Part shown: piece by piece, positions 45,812-54,340 of the stretch
Layout of the letters: the number at the start of each line of letters is the position of its first letter
Position numbering within the stretch: position 1 is the stretch's first letter
Translations under genes and position numbers: made by a program
The notes under the pieces: model-generated
What the model saw: the letters and a program-made list of their open reading frames with translations, nothing else
Database searches by the model: none
What the model was told of the DNA's origin: nothing
Assembly: GCA_003223395.1 (NCBI GenBank)
Contig: QHUZ01000087.1
Location: forward strand, 1-55,739
Source: Gemmatimonadota bacterium
GTDB lineage: Bacteria > Gemmatimonadota > Gemmatimonadetes > Gemmatimonadales > GWC2-71-9
Reading direction: 5' to 3'
Length of the DNA: 55,739 bases

Positions 45812-48800
45812 ATGCTTCTGAATCGACACGTAGGGCCCATCCTCGCGTTCCTGTCCGTCCTCGCCACTCCCCTCGCCGCCCAGAACGGCTCGATCCGCGG
45901 CCAAGTCGTCGACAGCGTCACCCAGCAGGGGCTCGTCGGCGCCACAGTCCTCATTCAGGGGCAACCGCGACAGACGGCAACCGGTGCCGACGGCAGCTTC
46001 ACGCTGAGCGACGTGCCGCCAGGCACGGTCGTACTCAAGGTGACGCGCATCGGCTTCGGTCCACAGACGAGATCGGTGACCGTCGCTGCGGGTGCCAGCG
46101 CCGAGGCGCGGTTCGCGCTCACGCCGCAGGCCTCGCTCCTCGAGGCCGTGGTCGTCACAGGTTACGGCTCGCAGCGACGCGAAGCGATCACCGGCTCTGT
46201 CTCAACCGTGGATCCGAGCGCGGCAAACGTGGGCGTGAAGACCAACGTCGATCAAATGCTGCAGGGCCGCGCGGCCGGCGTCGACATCATCCAAAACAAC
46301 GGCGAGCCCGGCGCCGGGATGCAGATCCTGATCCGCGGCGGCAGCTCGATCAGCAATACCAACGAACCGCTCTACGTCATCGACGGCGTCGCGATCAACA
46401 ACGTCCCGACGCAGCCGGACGGCATGGGCGCGGGTGGCGCACCACCGCTGGCGCGCAACCCCCTGAACATGATCAATCCCGGCGACATCGCTGCGATCAC
46501 GATCCTCAAGGACGCCTCCGCGACGGCGATTTACGGCAGCCGCGCCGCGAACGGGGTCGTGCTGATCGAAACGAAACACGGCACCAGCGCCGGTCCGTCC
46601 ACCGTCGAATATGACGGCTACGTTGCCGCGTCATCCCCGTCCAAGCGTCTCGACCTGGTCACCGCTCCCGAGTACCGTCAGTTCGTCACGGGGCAGGTCG
46701 CCCAGTTTGTCGCGGACACGGCCCTCTGTCCCCCGTTCGCCGTCGATTCGATCGCCTACAAGGCATGTTTCAGTGCCGCCCGGGGACTCGATCCGAAGCA
46801 CCTCGCCAACCTGGGTAAAGCAAACACCGATTGGGAGCGCGCGGTCACGCGCACCGCAGTCACGCACAATCACAATCTCTCATTCTCGGGCGGCAGCGAA
46901 GACACACGGTATCGGGCATCGATGAATTACATGAGCCAGCCCGGCGTGGCGATGAATAGCGGCCTGGAGCGGATCCAGGGAATGCTGAGCGCCAATCACC
47001 GGGCATTCGACAATCGCCTGCGCCTGGCGTTGACGGTGACCACGTCGCGCGAAAACGACACCTACATCACGTACGAGAACACCGGTGGCTTCGAAGGCGG
47101 CGTCTTCCAGAACATCGCGATCTTCAATCCGACGCAGCCGGTCGCGGTAACCGACTCGACCGGCACGCGCTATTACGAGGTCCCAGTCGGCACCTCCGTG
47201 CGGAATCCCGTGGCGTTGGCCGCACAGGTCCAGAACGTCGGCAACGCCACGCGCACCCTGGGAAACTCGAGTGCCGAGTTCGACCTCACGTCGGGACTTA
47301 CCGCCAAGATCGCCGTCGGCCTCGATCACTCGGACGGCATCCGCCAGATCTACTTCCCCAACAAGAATCCCGTGGGTGTGGCACTCGGCGGCGGGCTGGC
47401 CCAACAAGCCGAACTCGGGAACACGACGAAGACGTTGCAGACATTACTCACCTTCAATCGTCAGTCCGGCAACAACAGCTTCGACATGGTGGGCGGCTAC
47501 GAGTACACGAAATTCAACAACAATCTCGTGACGGCGCAGGGGGTCGGATTCTTCACCGATGCCTATGGCTTCAACAATCTCAGCGTCGCCGCCTCGCGCA
47601 CCGTTAGTTCGAACGCGACTGACTGGAAGCTCGCCTCGTTCCTGTCGCGCGCGAACTACGGGTACAAAGACAAGTACTTCGTCACCGGAATTCTCCGGTA
47701 TGACGGATCGTCGGTCTTCGCCACCGGGCATCAGTGGGCGCTGTTCCCGGGCCTCTCGGCCTCGTGGAAGCTGAGCCAGGAAGGCTTCGCCAGCAGCCTG
47801 CCGTTCTCCGATCTCCGGCTGCGAGTGGGTTGGGGACGCCAGGGCAACCCGGGCATTCCACCCTATCAATCGCTCGTCCTGATGAGCGGCGGCACGGGCG
47901 GCACGTATCCGTGGGGCGACACCCCGCAGAGCGGCGTGTTCCCGGTCGGCAACGGCAACAAGGACCTCAAGTGGGAGCAGACGGACCAGTACAACGTGGG
48001 GGTCGACTTCGGCCTCTGGGGTAACCGCCTCGCCGGCACGGCGGAGCTTTACGTGAAGAAGACCTCCAACCTTCTCGAGTTGGTCGGGGCGCAGCAGCCC
48101 GCCAATAATTCCCAGACGTTGGTGAACGTCGGCAAGCTGCGGAATCACGGCTTCGAGCTGACGCTCGACGCGCTGCTCGCGTCGCGGCCCAGTCTCACGT
48201 GGCGCGCAGGGATCACGTTTGCCGCCGCGCGGAACAAGGTCGTGTCACTGGGCCCGTTCAGCTTCCTGCGGTCCGGAGTCGTCAGCGGGCAGGGACAATC
48301 CGATCAATGGGCGGAGCGCCTGATCCCAGGACAGCCGCTCGGCACGTTCTATGGGCCGGTGTTCGTGGGCGTCGATGCGGCCGGCCATCAGCTGTTTGCC
48401 TGCACGGCGGCAACATCGGGCTGCACCAACGGACAGACCACGAACGGGTTGGGGCCCGCTTCCGCCGACTATGCCATCATCGGCAACGCGAATCCCGACT
48501 TCACCTTCGGGTTCCGCAACCAGATCACCTGGGGCAAGTTCGATATCAGCGCGCTGATTCGCGGCTCGGTCGGCCAGGACGTGTTCAACAACACGGCGCT
48601 GGTGTATTCGACGAAGAGCGACGCGCTTTCGGACAAGAATTTCCTGCGGCCCGCACTGACCGATGGGGTGGGGCTGCATGAGCCGGCGATCTACTCGTCA
48701 CGCTGGGTCGAGTCCGCGTCCTTCGTGCGGCTGCAGAACGTGACGGTGGACTACGCGCTGGATCTACCGGGCCTGGTGCGGAGCGCCCGCAGCATGCACC

Positions 48801-48979
48801 TGTTCGTGTCGGTCGATAATTTGTTGGTCCTGACGGGATATACGGGCCTCGATCCCGAGGTTTCGAACCTGAACCAGAACTCGCTGACGCCCGACGCCGG
48901 CATCGCGTCACGCGGCGTCGATTATCTCAGCTACCCCCGGCCCCGCACGGTGACCGGCGGCATCCGTCTCGTCTTTTGA
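45812..48979 (+). CDS. SusC/RagA-type TonB-linked outer-membrane protein
   Basis: The 1055 residues have a signal peptide (LAFLSVLATPLAAQ), a carboxypeptidase-regulatory-like domain (GSIRGQVVDSVTQQGLVGA), the plug (VVVTGYGSQRREAITGSVST, LYVIDGVAINNVP, ILKDASATAIYGSRAANGVV) and a 22-strand barrel ending in RPRTVTGGIRLVF. It imports glycans or peptides bound by SusD, powered by TonB. The SusD gene follows after 13 bases. The nearby GH97 enzyme hints at alpha-glucans. Confidence 0.96.
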   Translation: MLLNRHVGPILAFLSVLATPLAAQNGSIRGQVVDSVTQQGLVGATVLIQGQPRQTATGADGSFTLSDVPPGTVVLKVTRIGFGPQTRSVTVAAGASAEARFALTPQASLLEAVVVTGYGSQRREAITGSVSTVDPSAANVGVKTNVDQMLQGRAAGVDIIQNNGEPGAGMQILIRGGSSISNTNEPLYVIDGVAINNVPTQPDGMGAGGAPPLARNPLNMINPGDIAAITILKDASATAIYGSRAANGVVLIETKHGTSAGPSTVEYDGYVAASSPSKRLDLVTAPEYRQFVTGQVAQFVADTALCPPFAVDSIAYKACFSAARGLDPKHLANLGKANTDWERAVTRTAVTHNHNLSFSGGSEDTRYRASMNYMSQPGVAMNSGLERIQGMLSANHRAFDNRLRLALTVTTSRENDTYITYENTGGFEGGVFQNIAIFNPTQPVAVTDSTGTRYYEVPVGTSVRNPVALAAQVQNVGNATRTLGNSSAEFDLTSGLTAKIAVGLDHSDGIRQIYFPNKNPVGVALGGGLAQQAELGNTTKTLQTLLTFNRQSGNNSFDMVGGYEYTKFNNNLVTAQGVGFFTDAYGFNNLSVAASRTVSSNATDWKLASFLSRANYGYKDKYFVTGILRYDGSSVFATGHQWALFPGLSASWKLSQEGFASSLPFSDLRLRVGWGRQGNPGIPPYQSLVLMSGGTGGTYPWGDTPQSGVFPVGNGNKDLKWEQTDQYNVGVDFGLWGNRLAGTAELYVKKTSNLLELVGAQQPANNSQTLVNVGKLRNHGFELTLDALLASRPSLTWRAGITFAAARNKVVSLGPFSFLRSGVVSGQGQSDQWAERLIPGQPLGTFYGPVFVGVDAAGHQLFACTAATSGCTNGQTTNGLGPASADYAIIGNANPDFTFGFRNQITWGKFDISALIRGSVGQDVFNNTALVYSTKSDALSDKNFLRPALTDGVGLHEPAIYSSRWVESASFVRLQNVTVDYALDLPGLVRSARSMHLFVSVDNLLVLTGYTGLDPEVSNLNQNSLTPDAGIASRGVDYLSYPRPRTVTGGIRLVF

Positions 48980-48992
48980 GGAGGCTGGTCAT

Positions 48993-50582
48993 ATGAAGCG
49001 ACTTCTTGTGACAACGTCCTTCGGTGCAGTGGCGCTGAGCACGTTGCTGCTGGTGCCGATCCAGGGATGCACGGACCTGACCGAGGCGCCGCCGAGTCAA
49101 ATCGTGAAGAGCCAGTTCTTCCGCGACCAGGGCGAAGTACTCGCCGGTCTCGCCGGAGTCTACGCGCAGCTGCGTGGCACGCTGGATGACTACTATAACC
49201 TCAGCGAGATCAGCAGCGATGAAATGGTCGTGCCGACCCGCGGCCCCGACTGGTACGACAACGGCACGTGGCTCGAGACGCACCGCCAGCAGTGGACCGC
49301 CACCAGCCCGGGCACGCTCAGCTTCATGAACGGCGCCTGGAACACCGCCATGGGCGGAGTGGCGCGCGCCAACACATTCCTCGACGCCGTGCAGACCTCG
49401 TCCGTGCCGAACATCCCGAGCATCAGGGCGGAGGCGCGGACGCTGCGGGCCTTCTATTACTACCTGTTGCTGGACATGTTCGGCGGCGCGCCGATTGCGA
49501 CGACCCCAGAAATCAAGGCGCGGCCCCGCGCGACGCGCGATTCGACATTCAAGTTCATCGAGTCGGAGCTGCTGGCCGTTCGGCCCGACCTGCCCGTCAC
49601 GCGGGACGCGGCCAATAGCGGCCGGATCACGCGTGGTGTCGTGGATGCCATTTTGGCGAATATGTACATCAACGCCGGCGTATTCACAAAGGACGGGACC
49701 CCTACCAGTCCTATCAAGGCGACCGCGTACAATTCCTGCGCGGGCATCACGGTCGCGGGCGGACTCGACGCCTGCCAGGCGGCGGTGAACCGCGTCGACA
49801 GTCTTTTGAACGCCTCCGCAGTGTACGCGCTCGGCGATAGCTTTCCGACGTTCCAGAAGAATTTCTCGCCCGACAACGCCACGTCGAAAGAGAACATCTT
49901 CGTCGTGAAGTTCGCGGACGCGACGGACCTCGGCCTCAACTTCGTCATGCGGGCGCTGCACTATCACCAGTACACGCCCGAGCCCTGGAACGGGTTCGCA
50001 GCGCTGGCACAGACGTATAACGCCTTCGATGCCAGTGACAAACGCCGGTCGATTTTCCTCGTCGGACCGCAAGTCAACGTCCTGACCGGCGTGCCCACCA
50101 CGGACCGCGCCGGGAACCCGCTCGTGTTTACCGTCACCATCGCCAACGTCGCGTCGGCGACCGAAGGGGAAGGTCCGCGCATTTACAAATGGCCGGCCGA
50201 CCCCGGCCACGTCGCGCAGAACAACGGCAACGACTTCGCCTGGTTCCGCCTGGCGGAGATGGTCCTGATCAAGGCCGAGGCGGAGCTGGACGGCGCGACC
50301 GGCAGCGACGGGCCGCTCGCACTGGTGCAAAAGGTCCGAAAGCGGGCATTCACGACGGATACGCTGAGCGCGGTCTCGTTACCCGTCATTCTGCGCGAGC
50401 GGCTGTTCGAGTTCACCGGCGAAGGCAAGCGGCGCCAGGATCTGATTCGGTTCGGAGCGTACACGCAGCCGTGGGAGTGGAAGACGAACCCCGAGGGGCA
50501 GGAGGCGAGGCGCGTCCTCATGCCGATTCCCCAGGGGCAGATCGACGCCAACCCGCTGCTGACCCAAAACCCCGGGTACTAA
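48993..50582 (+). CDS. SusD/RagB-family glycan-binding lipoprotein
   Basis: The 529 residues have a lipoprotein signal (LLLVPIQGC), the helical SusD core (EVLAGLAGVYAQLRGTLDDY, ARTLRAFYYYLLLDMFGGAP) and the C-terminal RLAEMVLIKAEAEL and LRERLFEFTGEGKRRQDLIRF. It sits as a lid on SusC at the cell surface. GGAGG precedes the ATG. A perfect palindromic terminator follows the stop. Confidence 0.96.
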   Translation: MKRLLVTTSFGAVALSTLLLVPIQGCTDLTEAPPSQIVKSQFFRDQGEVLAGLAGVYAQLRGTLDDYYNLSEISSDEMVVPTRGPDWYDNGTWLETHRQQWTATSPGTLSFMNGAWNTAMGGVARANTFLDAVQTSSVPNIPSIRAEARTLRAFYYYLLLDMFGGAPIATTPEIKARPRATRDSTFKFIESELLAVRPDLPVTRDAANSGRITRGVVDAILANMYINAGVFTKDGTPTSPIKATAYNSCAGITVAGGLDACQAAVNRVDSLLNASAVYALGDSFPTFQKNFSPDNATSKENIFVVKFADATDLGLNFVMRALHYHQYTPEPWNGFAALAQTYNAFDASDKRRSIFLVGPQVNVLTGVPTTDRAGNPLVFTVTIANVASATEGEGPRIYKWPADPGHVAQNNGNDFAWFRLAEMVLIKAEAELDGATGSDGPLALVQKVRKRAFTTDTLSAVSLPVILRERLFEFTGEGKRRQDLIRFGAYTQPWEWKTNPEGQEARRVLMPIPQGQIDANPLLTQNPGY

Positions 50583-53500
50583 TTGCCGCAGGCGCTTCAC
50601 AGAGGGGCGCAGCATGCTGCGCCCCTCTTGCTTTTGCTCGGTATCGTCGCCTGCTCTGAAACACCGCGCGATGACGTCCCGCCGCCCGCGCGCGCCGGGC
50701 AGTTGTTCACGCTGATGCCCTCGAGCTACACCGGCGTCCGCTTCGAGAACCGCGTCACCGATACGCGGGAGTTCAATGTTTTCACCTACCGCAACTTCTA
50801 CAACGGCGGCGGCGTGGCGCTGGGCGATCTCAGCGGTGACGGGCTGCCGGAGCTGGTGCTCACCTCCAATCAGGGCGGCCCGCGCCTCTACCTGAACCTC
50901 GGCCAATTCCGGTTTCGTGACATTACGCAGGAGGCCGGCGTCGCCGAGCAGGACCGCTGGACGACCGGCGTCACGCTCGCGGATGTAAACGGCGACGGCC
51001 TGCTCGACATCTACGTGTGCCACGCCGGCCTGAAAAGCGCCGCACGCGCCAACACGCTGTACATCAATCAGGGAGTCAGAGACGGGATCCCACGGTTTCG
51101 CGAGATGGCGGCCCAGTACGGGATCGCAGATACCGGCTATTCCACCCAGGCCGCCTTTTTCGACTACGATGGCGACGGTGACCTCGACCTCTTCCTGATT
51201 CGTAACTCCCCGCGGGCGGTGGCAACGATCGCCGTCCGGAACCAGCGCACGATCCGGGATCCGCTCGGCGGACACGAGCTGTACCGCAACGACGGCGGGC
51301 ACTTCGTCAATGTCAGCGCGCAGGCGGGCATTTATGGCCCCGAAATCGGCTTCGGCCTCGGCATCGCGGTGGCGGACGTCAATCGGGACGGCCGGCCCGA
51401 TGTCTACGTCGCCAACGACTTCTTCGAGCGCGACTACCTGTACATCAACAAGGGCGACGGGACGTTCGCCGAAGTCCTGGACGGGGCACTCCCGGTCTCC
51501 AGCTACTTCTCGATGGGCGTGGACATCGCCGACGTGGACAACGACGGCTGGCCCGACATCTATACCGCCGACATGCTCCCCGAGGACGACTACCGGCTGA
51601 AGACGACGTCGGCCTTCGAACCGTGGGAGTCGTTTCAGGCCAAGGCCCGCGACGGCTTCGATCACCAGCTCATGCGCAACATGTTGCAGCGCAACAACCG
51701 CGACGGCACCTTCAGCGACATCGGGCAGCTGGCCGGCGTGGCGCGCACCGACTGGAGCTGGGCCGCCCTCATCGCAGACTTCGACCTCGACGGCAATAAG
51801 GACATCTTCGTCGCCAACGGACTGGCCAAAGACGTCACGTCACAGGATTACATCGCCTTCCTCGGCAACGACCAGACGATGCTCCAGGCAACGCGCGGCG
51901 AGCGGGTGGATTTCATGAGTCTCATCAACGCGATGGGCTCCACCAAGCTTCGTAATTACGCGTTCCGCAACAACGGCGATCTGACGTTCACGAAAGTCAG
52001 CGCCGCGTGGGGCGTGGACCAGCCGAGCTTCTCGAATGGCGCGGCATACGGTGATCTGGACGGTGACGGGGCGCCGGATCTCGTCGTGAACAACGTGAAC
52101 GACGAGGCGTTCATCTATCGCAACAACGCCCGCGCGCAGCTTCCGGCCAATCACTACCTGCAGGTCCGCCTCGAAGGCGACAGCGCGAATCGCTTCGCCG
52201 TCGGGGCGCGGGTCACGCTGCAGACGCGCGACCGCCAGTTCATGCAGGAGCTCGAGCCGACGCGCGGATTCCAGTCGAGCGTCGACTACACCCTGACATT
52301 TGGTGTGGGTCGCATCGATACGCTTGAATCGGTCACCGTCGATTGGCCTGATGGTCGCACGAGTGGCATGAAGCACGTCGGCACGAATCAGCGCATCACT
52401 CTTCGACCACCCGACCGCCGCAGTTTGAGTTTGACCGCCCGACCGCCGACCGCCCGATCGCCGCTGTTCAGAGACGTTACCTCTCAGGTAGGCTTGGACT
52501 TCAAACACCAGGAAAACGAGTTCATCGACTTCGATCGCGAGCAGCTCATTCCCAAGATGGTTTCCACCGAAGGCCCGTTCGTCACCGTCGGCGACGTGAA
52601 TGAGGATGGCCTCGACGACTTCTTCATCAGTGGCGCGAAGGGCCAGCCGAGCGCGCTCTACGTGCAGCGACCAAACGGCACGTTCGTAGCAACGAATAAG
52701 GCCCTACTCGACCGCGACCGCATTTCCGAAGACCTCGGCGCGGCCTTCTTCGACGCGAACGGCGACGGCAGGCTCGATTTGTACGTCGCCACCGGCGGCA
52801 ACGAATTCTCCGCGCTCGCGCCCGCCCTCGAGGACCGGCTCTACCTCGGCGACGGCCGCGGCAACCTGCGCAAGACGACAAATCAGCTGCCGCCACTCTT
52901 CACGAGCGGCTCGCGGGTCGCGGTGTCGCAGGACTACGTCTTCGTCGGTGGCCGGGTCGTGCCGGGGCGCTACGGCGTGGATCCGCCGAGCACGCTGCTC
53001 CGGAACGACGGCCATGGGAAGTTCAGCGACGTCACTGCGCGGGTCGCACCCGACCTCGCGCACATCGGGATGGTGACCGACGCGATGTGGCTCGACGTGG
53101 ACGGCGACCGCCGGCTCGATCTGGTCGTCGTGGGCGAGTGGATGCCGATCACGATCTTTCACAACACGGGCACGAAGCTCGTGCGCGTGGCGACGCGCGG
53201 ACTCGAGCACAGCGCGGGCTGGTGGAACCGGATCATCGCGGGCGATTTCAACGGCGACGGCCGGATCGACTTCGTGGTTGGCAATTTGGGACTGAACACA
53301 CGTCTGCACGCCACCCCCACCGAGCCGGCGCGCATGTACGTGAAGGACTTCGACGGCAACGGCTTCCCCGAGCAAATCGTCACATGCTACGAAAACGGTG
53401 TGTCGCTTCCGCTCGCCCTGCGCGATGAGCTCACCGCGGCACTGCCCTACCTCAAGCCACGGTACCCCAAGTACTCCGACTACGCCGGGCAGTCTGTCGA

Positions 53501-53912
53501 GCAGGTTTTCGGAAGTGGACTCGATGGTGCCATCGTGAAACAGGCTGAAACGTTCGCGACGACGCTGGCACTGAGCAATCGCGACGGCTCGTACACGCTG
53601 GTCCCCTTGCCGCGCGAGGCGCAGATTGCGCCCGTCTACGGCATTCTGGCGGGGGACTTCGATCGCGACGGCAACCTGGATCTCCTGCTGGCCGGGAACT
53701 TCGAGGGCGTACAACCGGCGATCGGTCAAATGAGTGCCAGCTATGGACTGTTCCTGCGCGGCGACGGGCACGGCGGCTTCAAACCTGTGGGCGCGTCCGC
53801 GAGTGGCTTCTTCGTGCCGGGTCAGGCGCGCGACATCCAACGGCTCCGCACCAGGCGGGGCGATCTCTACATTGTCGCGCGCAACAACGACCGGCCGCTG
53901 TTTTTCCGCTAG
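50583..53912 (+). CDS. FG-GAP/VCBS and UnbV (ASPIC) repeat lipoprotein
   Basis: From TTG 50583, directly after the SusD stop, the 1109 residues carry a lipobox (LLGIVAC). Calcium-binding FG-GAP repeats follow (GDLSGDGLPEL, ADVNGDGLLDIYV, FDYDGDGDLDLFL), then an UnbV/ASPIC domain near residues 520-605 (NRFAVGARVTLQTRDRQ, VTVDWPDGRTSG) and a second FG-GAP block. A repeat-coded linker (RPPDRRSLSLTARPPTARS) separates the halves. Such proteins accompany SusCD pairs in this phylum and probably bind the glycan at the surface. Confidence 0.88.
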   Translation: MPQALHRGAQHAAPLLLLLGIVACSETPRDDVPPPARAGQLFTLMPSSYTGVRFENRVTDTREFNVFTYRNFYNGGGVALGDLSGDGLPELVLTSNQGGPRLYLNLGQFRFRDITQEAGVAEQDRWTTGVTLADVNGDGLLDIYVCHAGLKSAARANTLYINQGVRDGIPRFREMAAQYGIADTGYSTQAAFFDYDGDGDLDLFLIRNSPRAVATIAVRNQRTIRDPLGGHELYRNDGGHFVNVSAQAGIYGPEIGFGLGIAVADVNRDGRPDVYVANDFFERDYLYINKGDGTFAEVLDGALPVSSYFSMGVDIADVDNDGWPDIYTADMLPEDDYRLKTTSAFEPWESFQAKARDGFDHQLMRNMLQRNNRDGTFSDIGQLAGVARTDWSWAALIADFDLDGNKDIFVANGLAKDVTSQDYIAFLGNDQTMLQATRGERVDFMSLINAMGSTKLRNYAFRNNGDLTFTKVSAAWGVDQPSFSNGAAYGDLDGDGAPDLVVNNVNDEAFIYRNNARAQLPANHYLQVRLEGDSANRFAVGARVTLQTRDRQFMQELEPTRGFQSSVDYTLTFGVGRIDTLESVTVDWPDGRTSGMKHVGTNQRITLRPPDRRSLSLTARPPTARSPLFRDVTSQVGLDFKHQENEFIDFDREQLIPKMVSTEGPFVTVGDVNEDGLDDFFISGAKGQPSALYVQRPNGTFVATNKALLDRDRISEDLGAAFFDANGDGRLDLYVATGGNEFSALAPALEDRLYLGDGRGNLRKTTNQLPPLFTSGSRVAVSQDYVFVGGRVVPGRYGVDPPSTLLRNDGHGKFSDVTARVAPDLAHIGMVTDAMWLDVDGDRRLDLVVVGEWMPITIFHNTGTKLVRVATRGLEHSAGWWNRIIAGDFNGDGRIDFVVGNLGLNTRLHATPTEPARMYVKDFDGNGFPEQIVTCYENGVSLPLALRDELTAALPYLKPRYPKYSDYAGQSVEQVFGSGLDGAIVKQAETFATTLALSNRDGSYTLVPLPREAQIAPVYGILAGDFDRDGNLDLLLAGNFEGVQPAIGQMSASYGLFLRGDGHGGFKPVGASASGFFVPGQARDIQRLRTRRGDLYIVARNNDRPLFFR
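50601..50640 (+). terminator. 28-nt perfect palindrome plus T-rich tail after SusD
   Basis: AGAGGGGCGCAGCA/TGCTGCGCCCCTCT (50601-50628) is a perfect inverted repeat followed by TGCTTTTGC. It has the form of an intrinsic terminator. It also encodes part of the signal peptide of the FG-GAP protein (GAQHAAPLL), so it probably attenuates that gene. Confidence 0.7.
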
Positions 53913-54340
53913 TTTTGCTTCGTGCGGATGAGGATCACGCCGTTCGCGCCGCGGACGCCGTACGCGGCCGTCGCCGCCGCGTCACGGAATACCTGGACGG
54001 TTTCGATGTCGTGCGTATCGATCGCCTTGAGGTTGCCGGGGTTGGGGGCGAGCGCGATGTCGTTGACGACGACCAGCGGCTCGTCGTCGCCCAGGAATGT
54101 GTTCGTCCCGCGGAAGTGCAGTACGGCATGGCCGTCCGGGGCTCGCGTCAGCGTCAACCCCGGCACGCGCGCGAGCAATAATTGCTCGAGCGACTGCCCC
54201 GGGGAGCGGCGGATGTCATCCGCGGTCAAGACCGTTCCCGGCGGCGTGTTGGTAGTCTCGGGCGCGGTGCGCGGAGTGCGATGCGAACACGCAAGGAACA
54301 GCGATACGGCCGGCAGGAGAGCGCGCGTCAGGTTCGTCAT
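53909..54340 (-). CDS. Orphan TonB-plug-domain lipoprotein
   Basis: The 143 residues from ATG 54340 have a lipobox-like LFLAC and a plug domain: LTADDIRRSPGQSLEQLLLA, LVVVNDIALAPN, IETVQVFRDAAATAAYGVRG, ANGVILIRTK. No barrel follows, so it cannot be a receptor itself. AAGGGG precedes the start. It may bind TonB or occupy a barrel in trans. Its stop overlaps the FG-GAP stop region on the other strand. Confidence 0.82.
   Translation of the reverse strand: MTNLTRALLPAVSLFLACSHRTPRTAPETTNTPPGTVLTADDIRRSPGQSLEQLLLARVPGLTLTRAPDGHAVLHFRGTNTFLGDDEPLVVVNDIALAPNPGNLKAIDTHDIETVQVFRDAAATAAYGVRGANGVILIRTKQN

Follow-up and report, generated by a model that had tools for sequence, protein, structure and literature searches.

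The SusD/FG-GAP boundary analyzed here lies in a window of 55,739 nt, by which we mean the whole stretch of DNA under study (contig QHUZ01000087.1 of assembly GCA_003223395.1, forward strand), from a Gemmatimonadota bacterium found in soil. Genes for a SusC-type outer-membrane protein, a SusD-type lipoprotein and a lipoprotein with FG-GAP repeats and an ASPIC-UnbV domain follow one another on the forward strand, with a perfect palindrome at the boundary of the last two (Table 1). On the reverse strand, a 143-aa ORF (53909-54340), most of it a TonB plug / SusC signature, is convergent with the FG-GAP gene and overlaps its end by 4 nt.

Table 1. Features of the SusC-SusD-FG-GAP locus and their coordinates in the window.
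Feature	Position	Strand	Basis or remark
SusC/RagA TonB-linked outer-membrane protein gene	45812..48979	+	ORF list; TIGR04056 profile match
SusD/RagB lipoprotein gene	48993..50582	+	ORF list; SusD_RagB profile match
SusD stop codon TAA	50580..50582	+	stem begins 18 nt after
FG-GAP / UnbV-ASPIC lipoprotein gene, 1109 aa	50583..53912	+	ORF; Pfam match (FG-GAP repeats, ASPIC-UnbV domain)
Inferred FG-GAP start codon TTG, adjoining the SusD stop, in the SusD frame	50583..50585	+	ORF; orthologues
28-nt perfect palindrome / RNA hairpin, REP-like element copy, outer triplets AGA/TCT not GTA/TAC	50601..50628	.	sequence, fold, copy alignment
22-nt core GGGGCGCAGCATGCTGCGCCCC, identical to 63 other genome copies	50604..50625	.	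genome pattern count
T-rich tract 3' of stem (TGCTTTTGCTCG), possible U-tract and signal-peptide h-region codons	50629..50640	+	sequence, orthologue comparison
Lipobox codons IVAC, FG-GAP signal peptide	50643..50654	+	orthologue comparison

The 28-base perfect palindrome that a first-pass annotation of this DNA had placed after SusD is present (AGAGGGGCGCAGCATGCTGCGCCCCTCT), its arms AGAGGGGCGCAGCA and TGCTGCGCCCCTCT being 14 nt each, 100% complementary and separated by a spacer of 0 nt. Its RNA form has 12 pairs and a 4-nt loop with a predicted energy of -26.6 kcal/mol (about -27), and the 101-nt region around it reaches -44.5 kcal/mol (z -3.85), a value equaled by 0 of 200 shuffles. No other perfect hairpin in the window reaches an arm length of 11 nt, and the SusD/FG-GAP boundary is the only one of 41 gene ends with such a hairpin, the next longest arm being 7. 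The stem-loop is GC-rich, as in an intrinsic terminator, and a terminator scan ranked the site, with its 12 pairs and T-rich tail, first among 11 calls in 9 kb. The tract after the stem contains 6 T in 12 nt with a longest run of 4, and the T-stretch of the tail TGCTTTTGCT is interrupted and begins 3-5 nt past the stem. At the gathering score no Rfam family matched the hairpin, the matches to STnc320 and STnc40 being sub-threshold only.

The FG-GAP/ASPIC-UnbV ORF is open from TTG 50583 in frame with SusD, whose stop closes the frame upstream, and the palindrome spans codons 7-16 (RGAQHAAPL), directly before the hydrophobic stretch LLLLLGIVAC with its lipobox Cys codon at 50652-50654. Apart from this TTG, the only possible starts are the in-frame TTG codons past the hairpin at 50628 and 50634. 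Since these would put only 8 or 6 residues, none of them basic, ahead of the lipobox Cys, FG-GAP is likely translated through the hairpin (MPQALHRGAQHAAPLLLLLGIVAC) from the TTG that adjoins the SusD stop. A TTG likewise directly follows the SusD stop in G002, G003, G005, G008, G073 and G075, and every palindrome-type orthologue keeps an open frame across the hairpin; the G069 orthologue has no in-frame ATG, GTG or TTG ahead of the hairpin. The ATG at the palindrome center (50614) was rejected as a start because it is out of frame with FG-GAP. The earlier proposal that the palindrome occupies the first FG-GAP codons therefore stands as far as its overlap with the signal-peptide codons of the only plausible frame is concerned, while the start codon itself is a putative one.

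The 22-nt core of the palindrome occurs in 64 exact copies in the 3.41-Mb genome, and in 93 when up to 3 mismatches are allowed, against 0 copies of the reversed core in the same genome. Eight of nine congeners carry 4-58 core copies; in G004, of the same genus, we found no exact palindrome copy and no match to the FG-GAP protein. Most other genera of the family lack the core; contigs of Chloroflexota, Bacteroidota, Acidobacteriota, Armatimonadota, Planctomycetota, Desulfuromonas, Geobacter and others contain it. Among 286 distinct copies, 209 have the standard form GTAGGGGCGCAGCATGCTGCGCCCCTAC, with GTAG at one end paired with CTAC at the other; the window copy has AGAG in place of GTAG. The context of the copies was taken from about 50 own-genome sites, with genes called by a simple codon-usage script and not by a standard gene finder. 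Of 50 classed copies, 37 were intergenic (16 convergent, 16 tandem and 5 divergent) and 13 lay inside genes; coding sequence makes up approximately 91% of this genome, and convergent junctions are enriched among the palindrome copies. Of 25 intragenic copies (G000, G003 and G008), 22 use the VGAQHAAPL frame. Among 23 dispersed copies in which both outer triplets differ from GTA/TAC, the triplets are complementary in 9, compared with 2.0 expected, and the dispersed palindromes thus look as if they had been corrected to perfect symmetry. On a Myxococcota contig (L049), copies at 2030 and 2224, 194 nt apart, have near-identical flanks rich in GTGTTC repeats, which suggests that the pair and its flanks form a larger duplicated unit. 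A literature search for the palindrome core returned only unrelated papers containing the 12-mer, and one for the malE-malF boundary of E. coli likewise yielded papers on other subjects.

A Y1/HUH transposase gene on contig C83 has palindrome copies on both sides, an arrangement shared by its relatives in G002 and G008. The linked protein contains MPDHIHG and matches Pfam Y1_Tnp at 24.1 bits (cut-off 23), and its best NCBIfam model is the REP-associated tyrosine transposase, NF047646, at 64.6 bits against a cut-off of 80. GTAG REPs and their REPtrons (PMC3733652, PMC2817692) are palindromes of 20-40 nt with a GTAG end, present in tens of copies that lie mainly at convergent or tandem gene junctions, with some in-frame intragenic copies and with an HUH tyrosine transposase flanked on both sides. 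The family found here resembles them in its length and copy number (28 nt; 64 exact and 93 near copies), in its mainly extragenic position downstream of genes (37/50 intergenic, convergent sites enriched), in the company of a RAYT-type tyrosine transposase with flanking copies (G000, G002 and G008), and in its GTAG end and in-frame intragenic copies. It differs in that the palindrome is perfectly symmetric, with GTAG and CTAC paired at its two ends where the REP tag is unpaired at one end, in that the same sequence occurs in many distant phyla, and in that the transposase falls below the NCBIfam cut-off for REP transposases; Gemmatimonadota are not mentioned in the GTAG REP paper (PMC3733652). 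Rickettsial palindromic elements, as cited in PMC3733652, are likewise palindromic repeats lying in a tolerated frame inside protein genes; the element described here is distinguished from them by its 28 nt and 9 codons, its different sequence and its link to a tyrosine transposase. Taken together, there is strong evidence that the palindrome is a REP-like (GTAG) dispersed element, which was probably mobilized by REP-type tyrosine transposases. The first-pass view of a dedicated terminator was accordingly not borne out, since the palindrome is one copy of a dispersed REP-like mobile element.

Several REP-type tyrosine transposase genes themselves carry an in-frame palindrome, in the linker just past the HUH motif (L337, L339-L342 and L346 of Gemmatimonadota g16/g26, L053 of Desulfuromonas and L123 of Wallbacteria, as well as L333, L345, L375, L386, L380 and L390). 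The g16/g26, Desulfuromonas and Wallbacteria genes embed the same palindrome as the junction family (VGAQHAAPL); other transposases embed different palindromes, in some cases also flanking the gene (GGGCGACGCATGCGTCGCCC, GTAGGGGCACGACATGTCGTGCCCCTAC, GTAGGGGCGGGTTTGAAACCCGCCCCTAC and GGGCGCGATTTATCGCGCCC). Such transposase genes may generally embed their own target repeat.

Conservation at orthologous SusD/FG-GAP junctions, proposed earlier as a check, proved positive: genera g1, g16, g26 and g11 all have the palindrome in the corresponding position, with covarying pairs, and every readable junction in the order has a hairpin. When the 50 own-genome copies were compared with five genomes (G002, G003 and G008 of the own genus, G061 and G063 of another), with orthologous place judged by flanking-gene similarity, the junction copy alone was common to all six, the G002 and G003 loci having been added by hand (cores with mismatches) and G008, G061 and G063 coming from unbiased pattern sets. 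The next-best copies were common to three genomes in all. Among the junction orthologues the outer pairs switch jointly from A-U/G-C to G-C/U-A, 99.2% of cells are paired, and the covariation score is 0.259 compared with 0.110 for shuffles (0/500). Since the dispersed copies show similar symmetric outer changes, covariation is not by itself proof of selection, and templated palindrome correction may contribute to it. Moreover, because nucleotide identity over the 28 nt, which exceeds that of the flanks in most orthologue pairs, is not extreme in all, the case for the junction copy rests on pairing and position. Paralogous FG-GAP genes (approximately 50% identity) were uninformative as junction evidence, with no SusD directly upstream in the DNA examined.

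Across the order, the SusD stop is followed by a strong hairpin at each of the 31 orthologous junctions that could be read: 13 are of the palindrome type, 17 have an unrelated GCCTGC...GCAGGC hairpin and 1 is of another type. In the GCCTGC type, 10 of 16 pairs are changed on both sides, with 29 double changes (0/500 shuffles). Throughout the sister family (L355-L369, L176, L178 and L179) this hairpin sits shortly after the SusD stop, before FG-GAP. Genomes with the GCCTGC type usually start FG-GAP with an ATG past the hairpin, as G015 and G100 also do. The possibility that the sister-family hairpin is itself a dispersed repeat was rejected (0-1 copy per genome). The data gave no clean tree with a single replacement: the base of the FG-GAP gene tree is unresolved, and G015, G100 and G025 cluster with the sister family. 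Because the hairpin is kept while its sequence is replaceable, an RNA role at the SusD/FG-GAP boundary is suggested, and this retention of structure is the strongest argument for it. Likewise, since the unrelated hairpins of the orthologues contain loops and G-U pairs, what is kept at the junction appears to be the structure and not a DNA word.

A T-run of at least 4 within 12 nt past the stem occurs at 10 of 13 palindrome-type junctions compared with 9% of dispersed copies, although this count, like those of position, comes from related orthologues and is not one of independent cases. For most orthologues, T content is also above what codon usage predicts for the encoded residues (P 0.004-0.07; two orthologues at 0.15 and 0.35). 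Both excesses favor some intrinsic termination at palindrome-type junctions. A terminator placed within the first 100 bp of a coding region can be active in E. coli, and at a distance of 17-18 nt past a stop codon, which compares with the 18 nt found here, efficiencies are 0.12-0.8 depending on ribosome coupling (PMC4824070). These position-dependence experiments, the enriched T-tract and the scan call would fit a classical intrinsic terminator or attenuator that acts alone, the hairpin and T-tract ending most transcripts after susD. We nevertheless consider this unlikely, given the interrupted and offset tail and the weak or missing T-tract of the G005 and G019 orthologues. Furthermore, intrinsic termination is not the common denominator of these junctions, since most GCCTGC-type hairpins of the sister family lack a U-tract directly after the stem. 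The resemblance to Rho-independent terminators is thus that of a stable GC-rich stem-loop with a T-rich stretch behind it, the differences being a T-tract that is not found in all orthologues and a hairpin drawn from a dispersed repeat family.

Sixty-odd other copies, mainly at gene ends and without sign of function, and the tolerated frame of the intragenic ones could mean that the element inserted here in the distant past and has been carried since as an inert passenger with no effect on expression. This is improbable, as the junction copy persists across genera, unlike the other copies, which turn over within the genus, its outer pairs covary, and unrelated hairpins hold the same junction elsewhere. 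We hold it to be quite improbable that FG-GAP starts further downstream, with the hairpin in its 5' untranslated region as a control of its translation. The ATG starts past the hairpin in the sister family, G015 and G100 agree with such an arrangement, as does the caution of Di Nocera et al. that N-terminal REPs often prove extragenic (PMC3733652). In the window gene, however, the later in-frame starts would place no more than 8 residues, none of them basic, ahead of the lipobox Cys, and the palindrome-type orthologues all keep the frame open. A site acting at the DNA level, through supercoiling or the binding of nucleoid or replication proteins, with the RNA hairpin incidental, would account for the perfect, strand-symmetric DNA sequence, and REPs elsewhere are reported to bind several DNA-associated proteins (PMC2817692). 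That the junction sequence gives way in other lineages to unrelated hairpins containing loops and G-U pairs makes such a site highly improbable.

A function for the hairpin at the SusD/FG-GAP junction is thus well supported by sequence comparison. The reading that we prefer, with a probability of roughly 0.6, is that a REP-like palindrome was domesticated at an ancient intercistronic hairpin site, where it would set the SusCD:FG-GAP ratio by 3'-end protection, partial termination or both. The element would have reached the boundary in the ancestry of several Gemmatimonadota genera, at a place where a strong intercistronic RNA hairpin is kept across the order, and would have been retained as a working hairpin, presumably replacing an older one. 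There it may mark or protect the 3' end of the susCD message, stop part of transcription before FG-GAP, or do both, so that one operon would yield much SusCD and little FG-GAP lipoprotein. Attenuation and 3'-end protection are both plausible as mechanisms; REP hairpins have been described as ribonuclease barriers and as attenuators (PMC12306157). In the clade of the window, where FG-GAP would start upstream of the hairpin at the TTG by the SusD stop, the hairpin would also be read as signal-peptide codons, in the harmless (V/R)GAQHAAPL frame. A ribosome re-initiating at this TTG would unfold the hairpin, so that transcription or decay could proceed through it. Extending domestication to such a dual-use sequence, in which a mobile palindrome replaced the ancestral operon-tuning hairpin and re-initiation at the TTG decides whether the hairpin forms, making it a translation-dependent attenuator within a signal sequence, is possible and offered only tentatively.

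At the malE-malF boundary of E. coli, an intercistronic REP lies between highly and weakly expressed genes of one operon and is proposed to set their ratio. The arrangement proposed here is similar in that a hairpin would set the gene ratio of an operon by 3'-end protection or termination. It differs from that REP, and from the attenuation by BIMEs (Espeli 2001, as cited in PMC2817692), in that the hairpin lies inside the downstream signal-peptide frame, at a place where relatives have an unrelated hairpin. REPs are usually regarded as selfish or as vaguely useful, and the junction copy, one of dozens yet kept across genera at a site where relatives seem to use an unrelated structure for the same purpose, offers a clean natural test of REP domestication. 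For Gemmatimonadota, the junction hairpin would provide a concrete route by which SusCD operons may control how much transporter is made relative to accessory lipoprotein.
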